Of a stretch of 8,409 nt of DNA, positions 2,236-8,392 are shown piece by piece. Both the position numbers and the translations under genes were made by a program. The stretch covers positions 8,403 through 16,811 of the forward strand of contig PMXH01000123.1 in the NCBI GenBank assembly GCA_003165855.1, written 5' to 3'. Under the pieces are notes generated by a model. The model searched no databases. It was not told the DNA's origin and saw nothing but the letters and a program-made list of their open reading frames with translations. The first letter of the stretch is position 1. Each line of letters starts with the position of its first letter. Origin of the DNA: Acidobacteriaceae bacterium. Lineage in GTDB: Bacteria > Acidobacteriota > Terriglobia > Terriglobales > Acidobacteriaceae.

Positions 2236-2883
2236 ATGACGGTTCCCGGAAGCGAACAACCGAACCCGAGTCCGAATCCAGATGCGGCTAAGCCCGCAGC
2301 GGGTGCGGTGGATGCCACGAAGTATGTGGGCACACCGGCGGTTGGAACCTCAAAGGCAGCGGCGGCTGGTGGACTTTCTTCAACCGGTCCTTCGAACACC
2401 GAGATCGACCAGCGGCGCCGGCGGCTGGTATGGGTCGCTGTGACGGCATTCCTGACCGCATGGTTCCTCGCCTTCTTCCGATTCTTTCTTCCCCGTACTC
2501 TGTTCGAACCCAACACGGTTTTCAAGATCGGCTATCCCTCGGAGTTCGCGCTGGGGGTCGATACCAAGTTTCAGCAAAAGTTCCGGATCTGGGTCGACCG
2601 CACGCCTGACCGCGTGTTCGTGATTTATGCGCGCTGCACTCACTTGGGCTGCACACCGGACTGGAAACCGAGCGAGAACAAGTTCAAGTGTCCATGCCAC
2701 GGCAGCGGCTATGACAGCGAGGGCATTAACTTCGAAGGCCCGGCGCCGCGCCCCATGGATCGCGCCCACGTCGAACTGGCGCCTGACGGGCAGATTATTG
2801 TGGATACTTCCCGCCTGTATCAGTGGCCGAAGGGACAGCCCAGCAAATTTAACGATCCGGGAGCTTTCTTAACCGGAGTGTAA
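2236..2883 (+). CDS. petC: Rieske [2Fe-2S] subunit of a quinol:cytochrome c oxidoreductase
   Basis: A 215-residue membrane-anchored iron-sulfur protein that takes the first electron from quinol at the Qo site. Residues 1-55 are a low-complexity Pro/Ala/Ser/Gly-rich tail. Four arginines at 60-63 precede one transmembrane helix (about 64-85). This resembles a degenerate twin-arginine signal anchor, the usual export route of Rieske proteins. The periplasmic head has box I C134-T-H136-L-G-C139 and box II C152-P-C154-H155-G-S. C134 and C152 with H136 and H155 should bind the cluster, while C139 and C154 should form the disulfide that marks high-potential quinol-oxidising Rieske proteins. The proline-containing GPAPRPMD loop (168-175) follows as expected. 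The gene is the first of four that encode the complex. The symbol is by analogy with split-cytochrome-b operons; petA/qcrA is equally defensible. Confidence 0.95.
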   Translation: MTVPGSEQPNPSPNPDAAKPAAGAVDATKYVGTPAVGTSKAAAAGGLSSTGPSNTEIDQRRRRLVWVAVTAFLTAWFLAFFRFFLPRTLFEPNTVFKIGYPSEFALGVDTKFQQKFRIWVDRTPDRVFVIYARCTHLGCTPDWKPSENKFKCPCHGSGYDSEGINFEGPAPRPMDRAHVELAPDGQIIVDTSRLYQWPKGQPSKFNDPGAFLTGV

Positions 2884-2935: not shown

Positions 2936-3868
2936 ATGGCTGACGAAAATATCCCGAACGGCAAGAACGGCAAAGTGGGCTTGGTCGACCGCGTCAAAGA
3001 AGATATTCAGGCGCTGAAGGTCGATATCCCCGCCAAGGCGAAGGAACAGATCGAAGGGCTGAAGGATCCGACCAAGACTCAGGTCTACACTTCGATCTTT
3101 CGGCACAAGCACGACGACACGCCGCGCAACCGTGCTCTGGGCGTGCTCTCCAACGTGTTCCTGCATTTACATCCGGCGAAGATCAATCGCGATGCGGTGC
3201 GTTACAGCTACACCTGGGGTATGGGCGGGATTACGTTCTTTCTGTTCATCATCCTCACCTACACCGGCGTGCTGCTGATGTTCTACTACCACCCGAGCAA
3301 GGTGCAGGCATTTCGCGACGTGCTTTATCTGGAGCACGACGTCCCTTTCGGCAAAATTCTGCGCAACATGCACCGCTGGGCCGCCCACCTGATGGTGATC
3401 GGCGTATGGCTGCACATGTTCCGCGTGTTCCTTACGGGATCGTATAAGAAGCCCCGCGAGTTCAACTGGAACATTGGCGTGCTGCTTCTGGTGTTCACTT
3501 TATTGCTCTCGTTCACGGGGTATCTGCTGCCCGACGATCAACTTGGATTCTGGGCCGTGACCGTGGGCACGAACATGGCGCGAGCCACGCCGCTGCTGGG
3601 GCATGAAGGGCCGTTCGGATCGATGCTGGGCATGACGCCATACAACGATGTGCGCTTCGGTCTTCTCGGCGGATCGATCGTGGATGCGAATGCTCTGTTG
3701 CGGTCGTATATCTGGCACTGCATTGGCATTCCGATTGTCGCTTCGATCCTGATGATCGTGCACTTCTGGCGGGTACGGAAAGACGGCGGCATCTCAGGTC
3801 CGGCGCCGGTGATGCTGGAAGCTGAAGCGGATAAACCACGGAGAGGACCGAAGGCGGCGGGAGAGTGA
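2936..3868 (+). CDS. petB: Cytochrome b, N-terminal heme-binding subunit (b6-like)
   Basis: A 310-residue inner-membrane protein that carries the two b hemes across the membrane for the Q cycle. A charged soluble N-terminus of about 88 residues precedes four hydrophobic helices at about 92-117, 147-166, 179-197 and 258-279. Helix B has H146 and H160 (MHRWAAH...WLHMF). Helix D has H261 and H276, with 14 residues between them, the spacing of cytochrome b6 and Firmicutes-type proteins rather than mitochondrial bc1. The conserved LPDDQLGFWAVTVGTNM loop (198-214) follows helix C. The GGIT segment (97-100) aligns with b6, but the cysteine that holds heme c_i in b6f is absent (L103 in my alignment). 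I prefer ATG 2936, with GAGG at 2927-2930. An in-frame TTG at 2906 would add ten residues but lies inside the palindrome. The C-terminal b region is encoded by the next gene. Confidence 0.95.
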   Translation: MADENIPNGKNGKVGLVDRVKEDIQALKVDIPAKAKEQIEGLKDPTKTQVYTSIFRHKHDDTPRNRALGVLSNVFLHLHPAKINRDAVRYSYTWGMGGITFFLFIILTYTGVLLMFYYHPSKVQAFRDVLYLEHDVPFGKILRNMHRWAAHLMVIGVWLHMFRVFLTGSYKKPREFNWNIGVLLLVFTLLLSFTGYLLPDDQLGFWAVTVGTNMARATPLLGHEGPFGSMLGMTPYNDVRFGLLGGSIVDANALLRSYIWHCIGIPIVASILMIVHFWRVRKDGGISGPAPVMLEAEADKPRRGPKAAGE

Positions 3869-3874
3869 GCGACA

Positions 3875-3949
3875 AAGTCAGAATGAAGAAGTAAGAATGC
3901 AGAAGTAAAACGAACCCACTTCTTCATTTTGATTTCTGACTTCTGCATT
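3875..3949. repeat. Inverted heptanucleotide array, linker 1 (petB-petD)
   Basis: Five 7-base units run from 3875 to 3909 with consensus close to AAKKMAG, for example AATGAAG and AATGCAG. Five units of the opposite orientation run from 3915 to 3949, for example CTTCATT and CTGCATT, after a gap of only five bases. AATGAAGAAGT (3882-3892) is exactly complementary to 3918-3928, and AATGCAGAAGT (3896-3906) to 3939-3949. The two pairings cross, so they form either alternative hairpins or a pseudoknot. The array occupies most of the 120-base gap between the two cytochrome b genes. It is not a CRISPR: units are 7 bases long, contiguous and inverted. Confidence 0.75.
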
Positions 3950-3988
3950 ATCGAATTTAGCCACGGTATTCGAGGCGAGAGAAATCTT

Positions 3989-4918
3989 ATGGACTGGCGA
4001 CAACTTTGGGAGATTTGTTCGGCTCCGGATAACGTGCCGATCGTGGGCCTGATCCCGCTGTTGGCCTTCTACATTTATCTGGCCTGGAGGCAGGCGCACG
4101 CCAACGATCAGTTAATCGAACAACTGGAAGGCGATGCCGCCCTCGCCAAGACGCATCACCGCAAGACTTGGCCCTTCAAGCCGGGCTGGCAAAAGGAAGT
4201 ACACGTCTGGCCGTTTCTGCTGCGCATAGAATTTCTCGCCGCCATCATCGTCACCATCATTCTGATGGTCTGGTCGATCACGCTGAACGCGCCGCTCGAA
4301 GAACCTGCCAATCCCAACCTCACGATGAATCCGGCCAAGGCCCCGTGGTACTTCCTGGGACTGCAGGAGATGCTCGTTTATTTCGATCCCTGGATCGCCG
4401 GCGTGGTAATGCCCACAATGATCATCATCGGCCTGATGGTTATTCCATATATCGACACGAACCCGCTGGGCAGCGGTTATTACACGTGGAAGCAACGGAA
4501 GTTTTCCATTGGGACATTCCTGTTCGGCTTCATCATTCTCTGGATCGCGATGATCATCATCGGAACGTTCATTCGGGGGCCTGGCTGGCAGTGGTTTTGG
4601 CCGGGGCAAACCTGGGACCACAACCGGCTGATCTATGAAGTGAACCGCGATCTCCCCGACATTTTCGGGATCACGTCGAACATGGCGAAGGCGCTTTTCG
4701 GCGCGGTCGTAGTTGGAGGGTATTACCTGCTGGGAGGCTTTCTCGTGTATTCGCTGTTCCGGCGATACATGGGGAAAGACTTCAAACGCATGAGCCTGCT
4801 GCAATTTGGGATCACGCAGTTCCTTTTGCTGAGCATGGTGGCGTTGCCCTTGAAGATGGCGCTGCGGCTCTTGTGGCACATCAAGTATGTGTGGATTACG
4901 CCCTGGTTCAATGTTTGA
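3989..4918 (+). CDS. petD: Cytochrome b C-terminal subunit (subunit IV-like, extended)
   Basis: A 309-residue integral membrane protein supplying the C-terminal part of cytochrome b, including the quinol-oxidation (Qo) loop. About six hydrophobic helices are visible (roughly 17-33, 76-99, 138-154, 175-196, 235-257, 272-296), against three in b6f subunit IV, so there are extra helices at both ends. The Qo motif normally PEWY reads A118-P-W-Y121 inside NPAKAPWYFLGLQE, so the usual Glu/Asp is replaced by Pro. I recall this variant from other split-b complexes with multiheme partners. RGPGWQWFWPG (196-206) follows the fourth helix. No heme histidine pairs are expected or seen. The ATG at 3989 has GAGAGA six bases upstream. 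An in-frame TTG at 3929 would add 20 residues (MISDFC...) that read through the repeat array and look non-native. The symbol is by analogy. Confidence 0.92.
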   Translation: MDWRQLWEICSAPDNVPIVGLIPLLAFYIYLAWRQAHANDQLIEQLEGDAALAKTHHRKTWPFKPGWQKEVHVWPFLLRIEFLAAIIVTIILMVWSITLNAPLEEPANPNLTMNPAKAPWYFLGLQEMLVYFDPWIAGVVMPTMIIIGLMVIPYIDTNPLGSGYYTWKQRKFSIGTFLFGFIILWIAMIIIGTFIRGPGWQWFWPGQTWDHNRLIYEVNRDLPDIFGITSNMAKALFGAVVVGGYYLLGGFLVYSLFRRYMGKDFKRMSLLQFGITQFLLLSMVALPLKMALRLLWHIKYVWITPWFNV

Positions 4919-4923
4919 GAAGC

Positions 4924-5016
4924 GTCGTTGGTCGTTGGTCGTTAGTCGTTGGCCAACACCCACGGTGTCGGCACAAAACATGAATCGCGAACGACCAACG
5001 ACCAAGGACCAACGAC
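4924..5016. repeat. Inverted heptanucleotide array, linker 2 (petD-multiheme gene)
   Basis: Four units of GTCGTTG (one GTCGTTA) fill 4924-4951, and four units of its complement CAACGAC, with single changes, fill 4989-5016. The two arms pair in register at 25 of 28 positions. The 37-base loop contains its own hairpin: GCC (4952-4954) with GGC (4970-4972), and ACACC (4956-4960) with GGTGT (4964-4968). The structure fills almost the whole 116-base gap and ends eight bases before the ribosome site of the multiheme gene. No T run follows, so a simple terminator is unlikely. It has the same design as the array in the previous gap with a different unit. Confidence 0.8.
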
Positions 5017-5024
5017 TGATTTTC

Positions 5025-5030
5025 GGAGGA
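5025..5030 (+). promoter_or_regulatory. Ribosome binding site deciding a GTG start
   Basis: GGAGGA lies four bases before GTG at 5035 (five from the GGAGG core). It supports the GTG as start of the multiheme gene, since the next in-frame ATG falls inside the membrane helix. Confidence 0.75.
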
Positions 5031-5034
5031 AGCG

Positions 5035-8000
5035 GTGCCTGAACAACCCAACCTCGAGCAGGACCCAATCACTACTAAGTCGTACGCCGCGTATTACCTG
5101 ATCGCGATGGTGATTCTGATGGCGACCCTGTTCTGGGCCTTGTGGGACGAGGCGTGGATACAGCGTCCGTGGAAGGCCTTCCAGGAGCAATGGAAAGACC
5201 GGTACAGCGCGTTCCTGAACCAGTCGAAATCCAAGTCCGCTACGTCAGAGAAAGATGTCGAACAGAATCCTGATTACGCCGCACTCAAGCAGGCTTACGA
5301 CAAGACTTATCAGGATTCGAAAGCGCCGGGTGAGGAAGCTCGCAAAGCGGTGGACGAAGTAACCGCCCGCCTGCTCGCGGTGCAAAGCGTGTTCACCGAC
5401 CGGCGTGCCTACGTGAATGCGCTCAGCTATGAGATTGAGACCAGTACGAGCCCGTCGTCTAAAGCCAGTAAGCAAAAGGAACTGGCGGACTACAAGAAGG
5501 AGAAGGCAACGGTTGAATTTCCCGACGGGAGCAAGAAACAATTCGACTTTCCGCAACTCGAAGAAACTTACAACGAGATCCGGGATGAGCGCACGAAAAA
5601 AAGCCTCGAACTCGGCGACGTGCTCAAGCCTGTAACTGCAGCCAAGACCAAGCTGGATGAGTACATTTCCGACCACATGGTCGATCTCACGCCGCAGCAG
5701 ATTGACGGCCTCAAACGGAAAATAGCGGACTGGGACCCGAAGATCGTCCAGATCAATGTGGCCGATGCCAACATCGTGGACCGCTGCGAGTCCTGCCACT
5801 TGAATACACGGGAGCCGCTGAAGATCACGCCGGCATCGATGACAGCCAAAGGCGAGAAGAAGCCGGACGAATATGCAGATGCGTTCGTCAGCCATCCCGA
5901 GCCTGAGTTATTGAAGATTCACGATCCGGAGAAATTCGGCTGCTCGCCCTGCCATCAGGGCAACGGACGCGCGACCACGAGCGTCGAGAAAGCACATGGC
6001 AACTACGAGCACTGGCTCTGGCCCTTGTTTCCCAAGGAAAACGCGCAAGCGGGTTGCCAGAATTGCCATGCGTCCGACATGGTGCTGGCCAGCGGCGACG
6101 TGCAGTGGCAAACCATCAACAACGGGAAAGACCTCTTCCGCCAGCGCGGTTGCATGGGCTGCCACCGCTATGAGGGATACGACAAAGAACCCGAAGATCT
6201 GAACTCGATCGGCCAGCAGATCAAGCAAATCGAGACGCAGAAGAAAGATAATCTGAAGCAAACTGCTTACTTGATGAAGGAGGCAGATGCGGCCGACTCG
6301 AACGAGGAAGCCAATCGGCTGAATACTCAAGCGGTGGACCTGCGGGTTGCCAACAGCAAGCTGGACGGGCGTTTGCAGCAACTCGATTATCAGTCGCACA
6401 GCCTGATGCAGGATCAAAAGAAGGTCGGGCCGAACCTGAAAGATGCGCGGCTGAAGCTGAACAGGAATTGGATTCCGGTGTGGTTGAAGAAGCCTTCGGA
6501 TTTTCGTCCCACGACCAAGATGCCGAACTTCCGCCTGACCGATCACCAGATCCAGGCGATTTCGGCGTATATCTGGCAAACAGGATTCACCGACGCGCTT
6601 CCCAAGCACAAGCCCGGCAACGCAGCACACGGAAAAGAATTGTTCGAGACTCGCGGGTGTCTGGCCTGTCATTCGATTGGCGAAGGCGATCAAGTGCAGG
6701 GCGGCACGTTTGCCGCGAATCTGACGCGTGTCGGCGAAAAGGCGAACTACGATTATCTGGTGCGCTGGATTCACAACGCGCGCGAACGCACTCGTCCCTA
6801 CTGCCCGTACGAGAAGAAAGATATCGGCCCCGAGGATTACGCCAAGAAGGGCCTGCCCTACCAGTTTGATCTCGACCACAGCCGGTGTCCCAACGATGGA
6901 CACGAACTGCAAGTGCAGAACATGACGGTGATGCCCAGCCTACGGCTTGCTCCCGAGGATGCGGAAGATATTGCGACATACCTGATGACGCGGAAGAAGC
7001 AGGAACCGTCGTCGTATGCGGATGCGTCGTTCATGGACGATCCTTCGCTGAAAGCCGAGGGAAAGAAGTGGGTCCGGCACTTTGGCTGCGGCGGTTGCCA
7101 TGAGATTGCGGGCATGGAGGACGAAGGGCGCATCGGCACTGAACTCACTTACGAAGGCAGCAAGCCGATCGAACGTCTCGATTTCGCCTTGTTCACTGAG
7201 ATTGCCCAGCGCGGCGGCAAGGACGCTGAGCCGATCAAGGACAAGGACGACCTCGCGCGTTTGCCCGACGGTCCAGCGAAGGAACCCTGGTACAACCAAA
7301 AAGGTTTCTTCGAACACAAGCTCGCCGAACCCAACATTTATGACCAGGGCAAGATCAAGGGCGAGCTGGACGCTTCGCGCATGCCAAACCTGCACCTCAC
7401 CAAGGAGCAGGTGCTCGATCTCACAACCTTCCTGATGGGAAGCGAGGAGACTTCCCTGCCTGCGAGTTATCAATACAAGCCGGGCGACGCGCGGCACGAC
7501 ATTCAGGAGGGCTGGTGGATCATCAAGAAATACAACTGCATGGGCTGCCACCAGTTCATCCCCGGCCAGCGGACGATTCTGATGGGATTGCAGCAGTATC
7601 AGGACATCCAAGAGCAGTTGCCTCCGAAGCTTCTCACTGAAGGTGCGCGCGTCGATCCCGAGTGGCTGCGCAAGTTCCTGTCGAATCCCGCTCTCAGCAC
7701 GACGGAAACGAATCGCAACGGTGTGCGTCCTTACTTGAAGGTGCGGATGCCCACGTTCTCTTTCTCCGATAACGAACTGCGCAAGCTGGTGCGCTTCTTC
7801 CAGGCGCTGTCGCAGCAACCGCTGCCTTATATTCCGGAGCAGGTGCCGGTGCTCACCACGAAAGAAACGGATATGGCACGGAGCCTGTTCTCCAGTTCCG
7901 CGGCTCCTTGCCTGAAGTGCCACGCCACGGGCGATCCCGCTCACGACAAGATCGCGACCGCGCCCAACTTCCTGCTGGCAAAAGAACGCCTCAAGCCGGA

Positions 8001-8301
8001 CTGGGTCGAGCGCTGGATCACCGATCCGCAGGCCGTCAGCCCGGGAACGTCGATGCCGTCGGGCTTATTCAAGCAGCAGGATAATCAGTGGGTGTTTGCC
8101 GGCCCGACTCCCCCGTCGTTCCAAGGCTACGCGGGAGATCATCGTAAACTGCTCACGGATTACATCTTCCTGTTAACGCCGGAAGAACAGCGGAAGGTAG
8201 CCGCGTCCATGCCGCACGCAAAAGCGGCGGTGCAGTTGAAGATCAATCGCAGGCAGGCAGTGGTGGAATCGCATCAAGCGGCCAGTGGCGGTTCGCGGTA
8301 A
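5035..8301 (+). CDS. Membrane-anchored octaheme cytochrome c subunit of the bc complex
   Basis: A 1088-residue protein that takes the place of cytochrome c1/f and should carry electrons from the Rieske protein into the periplasm. One N-terminal helix (about 19-37) has no clear cleavage site, so it is probably a membrane anchor. Residues 75-235 are charged and helical, probably coiled coil. Eight CXXCH sites follow, with first cysteines at 251, 303, 341, 373, 542, 685, 835 and 959. Hemes 1-3 form a compact block with spare histidines H287, H296, H321 and H326, likely bis-His. Hemes 4-8 look like serial class I cytochrome c domains, each ending in a Met-Pro ligand motif at M496, M633, M783, M905 and M1007. 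A second charged helical insert (about 388-460) splits domain 4. Domain 5 has an extra pair, C590 and C618, with H623. I know no established symbol. Confidence 0.93.
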   Translation: MPEQPNLEQDPITTKSYAAYYLIAMVILMATLFWALWDEAWIQRPWKAFQEQWKDRYSAFLNQSKSKSATSEKDVEQNPDYAALKQAYDKTYQDSKAPGEEARKAVDEVTARLLAVQSVFTDRRAYVNALSYEIETSTSPSSKASKQKELADYKKEKATVEFPDGSKKQFDFPQLEETYNEIRDERTKKSLELGDVLKPVTAAKTKLDEYISDHMVDLTPQQIDGLKRKIADWDPKIVQINVADANIVDRCESCHLNTREPLKITPASMTAKGEKKPDEYADAFVSHPEPELLKIHDPEKFGCSPCHQGNGRATTSVEKAHGNYEHWLWPLFPKENAQAGCQNCHASDMVLASGDVQWQTINNGKDLFRQRGCMGCHRYEGYDKEPEDLNSIGQQIKQIETQKKDNLKQTAYLMKEADAADSNEEANRLNTQAVDLRVANSKLDGRLQQLDYQSHSLMQDQKKVGPNLKDARLKLNRNWIPVWLKKPSDFRPTTKMPNFRLTDHQIQAISAYIWQTGFTDALPKHKPGNAAHGKELFETRGCLACHSIGEGDQVQGGTFAANLTRVGEKANYDYLVRWIHNARERTRPYCPYEKKDIGPEDYAKKGLPYQFDLDHSRCPNDGHELQVQNMTVMPSLRLAPEDAEDIATYLMTRKKQEPSSYADASFMDDPSLKAEGKKWVRHFGCGGCHEIAGMEDEGRIGTELTYEGSKPIERLDFALFTEIAQRGGKDAEPIKDKDDLARLPDGPAKEPWYNQKGFFEHKLAEPNIYDQGKIKGELDASRMPNLHLTKEQVLDLTTFLMGSEETSLPASYQYKPGDARHDIQEGWWIIKKYNCMGCHQFIPGQRTILMGLQQYQDIQEQLPPKLLTEGARVDPEWLRKFLSNPALSTTETNRNGVRPYLKVRMPTFSFSDNELRKLVRFFQALSQQPLPYIPEQVPVLTTKETDMARSLFSSSAAPCLKCHATGDPAHDKIATAPNFLLAKERLKPDWVERWITDPQAVSPGTSMPSGLFKQQDNQWVFAGPTPPSFQGYAGDHRKLLTDYIFLLTPEEQRKVAASMPHAKAAVQLKINRRQAVVESHQAASGGSR

Positions 8302-8340: not shown

Positions 8341-8392
8341 GTCATCCCGAGCGAAGCGAGGGATCTTGGTGTTTGCTCGCCGCAGCAACACC
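8341..8392. repeat. Dispersed repeat element with two hairpins
   Basis: GTCATCCCGAGCGAAGC, running on to GGGATCT, is a sequence I recall as a widely scattered intergenic repeat in Acidobacteriota and some other bacteria. Its reverse strand gives the recurrent spurious peptide IPRFARDD. ATCCC (8344-8348) pairs with GGGAT (8360-8364) around GA...GA and the core GCGAAGC (8351-8357). A second hairpin pairs GGTGTT (8368-8373) and GC (8375-8376), with T8374 bulged, to GC (8385-8386) and AACACC (8387-8392). The element may continue beyond the window. Copy number cannot be judged from one copy. Confidence 0.55.

Follow-up and report, generated by a model that had tools for sequence, protein, structure and literature searches.

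Inverted arrays of seven-nucleotide units in the gaps of an acidobacterial cytochrome bc-type operon: two families of a dispersed intergenic hairpin class

The cytochrome operon and its two linkers

The window, an 8,409-nucleotide stretch of an Acidobacteriaceae genome, contains an Acidobacteriota cytochrome bc-type operon. On the plus strand it encodes a Rieske iron-sulfur protein (2236..2883, PF00355), the N-terminal part of cytochrome b (2936..3868, PF00033/PF13631), the C-terminal part of cytochrome b (3989..4918, PF00032), and a multihaem cytochrome c of 1088 residues with a GTG start codon (5035..8301, PF00034 and others). The nearest named records are metagenome assemblies of Acidobacteriaceae, among them Candidatus Sulfotelmatobacter, and the assembly from which the window comes (4.87 Mb in 610 contigs) is 77% complete. 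An earlier note on this DNA had described inverted heptamer arrays in two successive gaps of the operon, each directly 5' of a cytochrome gene: linker 1 (gap 3869-3988), which precedes the gene for the C-terminal part of cytochrome b, and linker 2 (gap 4919-5034), which precedes the multihaem cytochrome c gene. Both arrays and both positions were confirmed, linker 1 being statistically the weaker of the two, although its unit family is dispersed.

Linker 2 begins 5 nt past the upstream stop codon with a 5' arm of four GTCGTTR units (4924..4953, plus strand), continues with a 33-nt loop that has a small hairpin inside it (4954..4986, no strand assigned), and closes with a 3' arm of four inverted units (YAACGAC; 4987..5016, minus strand) that ends 8 nt before a GGAGG (5025..5029, plus strand). 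The GGAGG resembles a ribosome-binding site by inspection and lies 5 nt 5' of the GTG start at 5035; a GGAG-type sequence likewise precedes the start in most of the orthologous gaps printed. The two arms of 30 nt, spaced 33 nt apart, are 90% complementary and are reported by TRF as (GTCGTTG)4.1 and (AACGACC)3.9. The lag-7 segment score (18), the stem score (21) and the lag-14 score were each reached by none of 1000 dinucleotide shuffles, and the predicted RNA fold has an energy of -53.3 kcal/mol (z -5.7).

Linker 1 is less regular. Its 5' arm (approximately 3875..3906, plus strand) consists of degenerate 7-nt AAKKMAG units of the GAAGTCA/GAATGCA family, in which a 14-nt period is clearer, and its 3' arm (approximately 3918..3949, minus strand) of the inverted units ACTTCTT, TGACTTC and TGCATTC; complementarity is 74-100% across the overlapping inverted stretches. 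A count of about 4.5 units per arm is fairer than the five forward and five reverse units first proposed, and the period is not strictly seven, since the lag-7 segment score (8) was reached by 10 of 1000 shuffles, versus none for the lag-14 score (16) and one for the stem score (12), and the sole array that TRF reports is one of period 14 in the left arm. Nor is the gap almost devoid of other sequence, as 39 nt follow the right arm. The RNA fold z of linker 1 is -2.3. The hairpin classification script placed linker 1 under 'other' because its lag-7 score of 8 is below the threshold of 11; visual inspection identifies it as the element of L004. The family labels of this script, like those used on the gene trees and in the loop comparisons below, follow motif and unit lists compiled once the sequences had been seen.

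A dispersed class of paired heptamer and octamer arrays

Both unit families are found elsewhere in the same assembly. A 20-nt GTCGTTR pattern, allowing at most 2 mismatches, has 77 matches (38 forward and 39 reverse, overlapping matches included) compared to 0 for the control, whereas the linker-1 pattern, allowing at most 3 mismatches, has 18 matches compared to 8 for the control, with contigs C263 and C519 carrying clear, full paired hairpins. The distribution of the exact 17-nt GTCGTTR pattern is patchy: it occurs in 10 of 297 Acidobacteriota genomes drawn across the phylum (this genome, one of the same genus, two of the same family, and six of other families). Chance low-complexity sequence, with which the modest lag-7 signal of linker 1 alone could be reconciled, is an explanation of negligible probability in view of the shuffles of linker 2, the 77 matches of GTCGTTR against none for its control, and the orthologous as well as dispersed copies. 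Other arrays are present in this genome and in its relatives, and conserved, non-repetitive linkers of the kind that would point to chance do not occupy the orthologous gaps.

Intergenic periodicity is dominated by seven nucleotides. A survey of 80 loci from relatives (1.28 Mb, with 142 kb intergenic according to an ORF mask) revealed 44 arrays at lag 7 and 27 at lag 14, whereas the other lags between 4 and 13 yielded 0 to 10 each. An unmasked scan for paired arrays covered 2.0 Mb, namely the loci of relatives (1.28 Mb), the own genome (340 kb, in which 20 of the 39 contigs had been chosen for holding matches) and 400 kb of a genome of the same genus, G084, scanned as 20 stretches at fixed steps. 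At lag 7, 57 pairs were inverted (24 in relatives, 19 in the own genome and 14 in G084) and three, all in G084, were direct; 17 of the 24 pairs in relatives lie in the two cytochrome gaps themselves and are not independent samples, and the 33 pairs of the own genome and G084 include one such gap. At lag 8, 20 pairs were inverted and none direct. The 2.0-Mb scan found no paired arrays at lags 5, 10, 11 and 13, one inverted pair at lag 4, one inverted and one direct pair at lag 6, one inverted and five direct pairs at each of lags 9 and 12, and 0 or 1 inverted pair at each other non-harmonic period up to 20, with lags 14, 16 and 21 treated as harmonics. The earlier suggestion that one process underlies the two linkers is thus well supported. 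The 7-nt families include GTCGTTR, CAGTGGY, CAGCTNT, TAGCTTC, AGGGRTT, GGTCTTA, AGGTCTC, AGATTTC, GAAGTCA and GAGTACC, and the 8-nt families are of the CACAGAGA and AATTGAGT types; linkers 1 and 2 are two of many unit families in one dispersed intergenic hairpin class.

The density of hairpins is uneven: G084 has 14 lag-7 pairs in 400 kb, compared to none in 19 own contigs taken at regular steps (122 kb), which contain two lag-7 arrays. The twentieth regular-step contig (C455) carries the element of site A (see below) and was tallied among the chosen contigs. Hairpins of 8-nt units (CACAGAGA, CCACGGAG, AATTGAGT and GTAATTTG types), inverted in layout like those of 7-nt units, were noticed at L001, L013, L021, L026, L130, L131, L132, L232 and other loci.

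The polarity of the arms within each family is nearly fixed. GTCGTTR pairs within 300 nt read GTC...GAC in all 15 cases from the own genome and all 14 from relatives, and never GAC...GTC. Between elements of the same family, agreement to disagreement in polarity was 68:0 (own genome), 15:0 (G084) and 57:3 (relatives) at lag 7, and 11:0, 1:0 and 3:0, respectively, at lag 8, in comparisons that overlap and are not independent. Among 18 loci from three distant genomes, six (L204, L205, L206, L210, L211 and L216) have paired GTCGTTR-type elements, all GTC...GAC; two (L214 and L215) have several arrays in a single orientation, one (L203) has a pair of a different family, and nine have no pair.

A universal core, YYRG, in the units of the 5' arm was considered and rejected: 46 of the 57 pairs agree with it, seven are opposite and four are ties, in a tally of unit families that are not independent, to which GTCGTTR contributes much and several families run opposite. 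As a separate observation, most 5'-arm units can be written as YYRG plus three variable bases, and the published units of Xanthomonas, Nostoc and Beggiatoa can be rotated to that form.

Replacement of unit families at orthologous sites

The gaps orthologous to linkers 1 and 2 (gaps 1 and 2) are variable. Among 45 genomes (the window plus 44 relatives), gap 2 contains paired GTCGTTR arms in 15 and single ones in 6; the remainder consists of another heptamer family (4), another recognisable hairpin type (6), other sequence (8), gaps shorter than 50 nt (5), and one locus (L041) for which the boundaries could not be set. In gap 1, the five nearest genomes, including the window, have four kinds of element. 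One clade of relatives has a gap 1 of 2 nt, and a gap 2 of less than 25 nt in several members. At L009, one arm has ten units and the other has four.

Other observations concern individual gaps. The close relatives L018 (10927-10995) and L021 (9556-9639) are identical in gap 1 and exactly one 7-nt unit apart in each arm of gap 2. Another dispersed-looking hairpin (GGACAGCCGCCCTCGGCTGTCC type, approximately 130-175 nt) occupies gap 1 of L006, L008-L011, L026, L035, L057 and L061, with a fold z down to -10 where it was folded. A TCATCCCGAGCGAAGCGAGGGATCT element is located at 8342-8366 of the window, 3' of the multihaem cytochrome gene, and TCATCCCGAGCGAAGCGAGGGATCT-like elements occur within or in place of heptamer hairpins in gap 2 of L006, L007, L008, L010 and L011 and at site C2.

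Three more stretches of the own genome were traced through its genus in 45 genomes, one of them the own genome, with matches in 44, 43 and 44 of them, among which 30 loci per search were examined; this placed 29, 29, 30 and 29 gaps, respectively, at sites A, B, C1 and C2, which were picked because an element of the own genome is present there. Within gaps of 50-260 nt, strong stems were found in 26 of 28 (A), 15 of 25 (B), 24 of 30 (C1) and 6 of 28 (C2), and lag-7 arrays in 25, 13, 29 and 11, respectively. As background, gaps of this length had strong stems in 19 of 142 cases in the G084 sample and, cytochrome gaps included, in 32 of 288 cases in relatives; the 34 such gaps of the 19 own contigs had none. 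Eight named unit families share one gap position at site A across 29 genomes, and at site C1 units of (A/G)GCT type are retained in 29 of 30 genomes even though the exact family switches.

The arms do co-vary between species, by family. When left halves were matched to their own right halves and to the right halves of orthologs, the scores were 17.9 versus 8.4 at A, 13.2 versus 7.2 at B, 16.9 versus 11.5 at C1 and 9.8 versus 7.4 at C2, and the observed mean was reached by 0, 0, 0 and 2 of 20,000 permutations, respectively. The cytochrome gaps behave likewise (14.8 versus 8.1 in gap 1 and 13.5 versus 8.9 in gap 2, 0 of 20,000 permutations each), with other hairpin types contributing there, as a lag-7 array is present in only 3 of 29 gap-1 and 22 of 37 gap-2 sequences. 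The co-variation of arms that the earlier note had proposed as a check is therefore found across orthologs, family by family, and not unit by unit (see below). On trees of the flanking genes, the number of family changes is close to that of shuffled labels (15 versus 17.25 at A, 20 versus 19.9 at B, and 13 versus 12.6 at C1, with labels based on motif and unit lists made after the sequences were seen), which indicates that switching is fast.

Correspondence between arms and between loops

Base-by-base pairing or copying of one arm from the other predicts that each unit should best match its partner in the opposite arm. There is no such unit-by-unit register: when the order of units in one arm was shuffled in 100 of the 107 elements found (those with arms of at least 21 nt), the match was 17.34 as observed and 17.63 as shuffled, and 192 of 200 shuffles reached the observed value. 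In the own genome, the two arms of a GTCGTTR element resemble each other no more than they resemble the arms of other elements (15 elements, p 0.35), and the same test on 14 GTCGTTR elements in relatives gave p 0.014, so that co-variation is clear only across orthologs and not inside one genome. Slippage producing a tandem array, followed by inverted duplication through inversion or template switching, as the earlier note had put forward, could account for the period and for the inverted layout, but predicts both polarities and a register between the arms; near-fixed polarity and absence of register argue against this very improbable scenario, and against arm-to-arm copying as well.

The loops show how much is replaced in a switch. 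Among 55 hairpins of sites A to C2 with loops of at least 12 nt, loops of the same family at the same site are alike in orthologs, with mean z of 0.83 (A), 1.19 (C1) and 1.60 (C2) and p values, rough because overlapping pairs were treated as independent, of 2e-6, 5e-9 and 5e-4, respectively, in comparison to pairs from different sites; the similarity is modest even where significant. Loops of different families at the same site have no likeness (p 0.16 at A and 0.24 at C1), nor do those of hairpins that belong to one family but lie at different sites (mean z -0.13 in 71 comparisons), and no 9-mer is shared among the 17 of 29 GTCGTTR loops, that of linker 2 included, that were long enough for comparison. 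Since likeness is confined to orthologs of the same site and family, arms and loop are replaced together, and no recognisable sister copy elsewhere is the source of the new loop. Loops may, however, diverge fast enough to hide common descent. The missing loop identity between dispersed copies argues against transposition of whole hairpins, and so against mobile hairpins in the plain sense of the earlier note. Internal sequence common to dispersed copies, as expected of MITEs, was found in neither set of loops.

RNA structure and gene context

A role in RNA is possible for the hairpins of the cytochrome operon. Among sequences of at least 50 nt, a fold z below -3 was found for 50% of 30 gap-1 and 49% of 39 gap-2 sequences, versus 9% of 130 other co-directional gaps (60-250 nt) of the same loci, and the hairpin types in these low-z cytochrome gaps are unrelated to each other. 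Selection for an intercistronic stem-loop that stabilises mRNA, directs its processing or separates the translation of the cytochrome genes, the stem being free to vary in sequence as long as it pairs, would agree with this enrichment through unrelated hairpins and with the persistence of the layout while the sequence switches, and it has precedents in cyanobacteria: a stem-loop at the processing site of nif operons accompanies a longer transcript half-life (PMC4284476), and 7-bp STRR hairpins between hupS and hupL have been discussed in terms of stability (PMC2670836).

Several results make such selection a doubtful explanation. The bias in gene context expected of terminators was looked for among 60 hairpins between two called genes and was not found, the ratio of co-directional to divergent to convergent positions being 39/14/7 compared to 450/173/122 in 745 other gaps; this count omits 14 hairpins called intragenic and three at edges, and rests on crude gene calls by which co-directional cytochrome gaps were miscalled as divergent (L009, L011 and L015) or intragenic (L018 and L021). 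The clade with a 2-nt gap 1 and the members with a gap 2 of less than 25 nt have these short gaps in place of a hairpin, pairing is not compensated at the level of units, and long operon gaps may simply be recipients of elements. The earlier suggestion that RNA structure is selected rather than sequence is possible, as the layout outlasts its sequence, but unit-level compensation and a distinctive gene context were not seen.

Two conventional identities were also rejected: no intrinsic terminator (short G+C stem, small loop and T run) was found in 3700-5100 by a scan of loops of 3-8 nt, and none of 4227 Rfam families matched at the gathering score.

Possible origins

We tentatively propose, with a probability of roughly 0.4, that each hairpin arose in place by being written as a single block, both of its arms being made from one unit, probably at the 3' ends of a break; a single step of this kind would fit most of the findings. 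A putative repeat addition would extend both 3' DNA ends of the break with unit X, and the extended ends would then be joined, giving X...X' with fixed polarity; the joint between the ends would become the new loop, and both arms would belong to the same family with no register between them. We infer that both arms are synthesised de novo in each event. Through repeated events a gap would be trimmed down to the sequence required by its genes, and this would account for the many arms that lie a few bases from a stop codon and just before a ribosome-binding site. No enzyme is known to perform such repeat addition at DNA ends, and the sequences examined revealed neither an enzyme nor a template nor a break. 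Two further findings count against writing at ends, namely the arrays of L214 and L215 in one orientation and the 19 regular-step contigs of the own genome with no paired hairpin, and the retention of (A/G)GCT-type units at site C1 implies a local memory of sequence that a template acting purely in trans does not predict.

The main rival, which we consider possible though somewhat doubtful, is that conventional dispersed intergenic repeats (similar to REP or STRR) were copied as entire hairpins long ago, that each arm has since drifted by slippage of 7 nt, and that family switches arise when species exchange whole gaps by homologous recombination through the conserved flanking genes. Descent from a single ancestral hairpin in each family would fit the fixed polarity; close orthologs differ by whole units (gap 2 of L018 and L021, and the ten versus four units of L009), family labels have little or no phylogenetic signal on the gene trees (A, B and C1), and same-family orthologs have loops in common, all of which this rival would explain. 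It is less easily reconciled with the missing loop homology of same-family copies at different sites, with three Y1 transposase loci that have no arrays, or with the eight families at site A in 29 genomes, which would need many donors.

Two kinds of enzyme were considered. A link to Y1 transposases found no support, as no arrays lie beside the three Y1 loci (approximately 1.5 kb on each side) of the 77% complete assembly. Nor did a role of reverse transcriptase gain support: genome G339 lacks a PF00078 match but carries hairpins at each of the three sites searched, so that a canonical reverse transcriptase is not needed. Elsewhere, contig C162 of G000 (L334 and L335), one short contig, has reverse-transcriptase matches (C162:1007-1632) approximately 0.4-1.4 kb from four heptamer arrays.

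A bolder extension of in-place writing, which we regard as unlikely, is that soil acidobacteria have a hitherto unrecognised process, akin to telomere capping in its products, in which 7- or 8-nt units would be added onto both 3' ends of a chromosome break, the ends joined, and the resulting inverted-repeat scars rewritten at the same gap with another unit family from one species to the next; this process might also account for the paired heptamers in Xanthomonas and for STRR hairpins in cyanobacteria.

Although heptamer repeats have been described from bacterial gaps over several decades, there is, to our knowledge, no agreement on their origin. Finding the same gap within one genus occupied by a different family in both arms and by a new loop places strong constraints on that origin: any mechanism has to write or transfer the arms jointly with the loop, preserve polarity, be indifferent to the order of units, and favour 7 or 8 nt. 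The old question thereby becomes testable with strain series and long reads. These results are also a warning that hairpins within operons should not be taken as conserved regulators on the basis of structure alone.

Comparison with known repeat systems

REP and BIME sequences are short, dispersed, intergenic palindromes, some of them paired, that are associated with RAYT transposases. They are characterised by a conserved, non-tandem palindrome with a GTAG or CGTC foot and are not built of tandem 7-nt units, whereas the arms described here are tandem units and the loops are unrelated, and none of the three Y1 (RAYT-type) genes is flanked by an element. REP-related Y1 transposases have been reported from Acidobacteria as well (PMC3733652).

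The TAACTGA repeats of Beggiatoaceae (MacGregor 2015, PMC4679880) resemble the present elements in being intergenic heptamer arrays of 2-6 units near start codons with a patchy distribution across phyla, but they comprise 169 direct sets and one inverted, a single family, and an orientation mostly linked to the start codon. The STRRs of heterocystous cyanobacteria are intergenic heptanucleotide tandem repeats with hairpin potential, as are those found here, with 7-bp units in intergenic and intra-operon gaps including that of hupS-hupL (PMC2670836). The accessible part of that description includes neither the paired layout nor the joint change of arms and loop, and the phylum is different: the closest genomes to the window are Acidobacteriota records, so that the two are set apart by host and not by comparison of units. 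To judge by its title, Jackman and Mulligan (1995) may already have put part of this in print for cyanobacteria. In the literature searched, which excluded most subscription papers, there was no mention of such hairpins in Acidobacteriota, of 8-nt relatives, of a paired form with many families, or of orthologous gaps between which the family switches.

Although the earlier note knew of no description of inverted pairs, such a form has been published before: apart from the published STRR hairpins (PMC2670836), Rehm et al. (2015) described GGGAATC heptamers with stem-loop potential in two Xanthomonas genomes, forming 70 and 75 convergent array pairs (PMC4692102). As in the class described here, for which inverted pairs outnumber direct ones 57 to 3, the Xanthomonas units are 7 nt long, mostly four in number, intergenic and dispersed, and their convergent pairs amount to one polarity; repeats of prominent length are at different genes in the two related species (PMC4692102). 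The Xanthomonas repeats are, however, a single G-rich family with quadruplex potential (PMC4692102), whereas the acidobacterial genomes have many families each with no need of a G-tract, the units of both linkers having no GGG, and the acidobacterial class extends beyond that of Xanthomonas to 8-nt relatives and to the switching of whole hairpin families at orthologous gaps.
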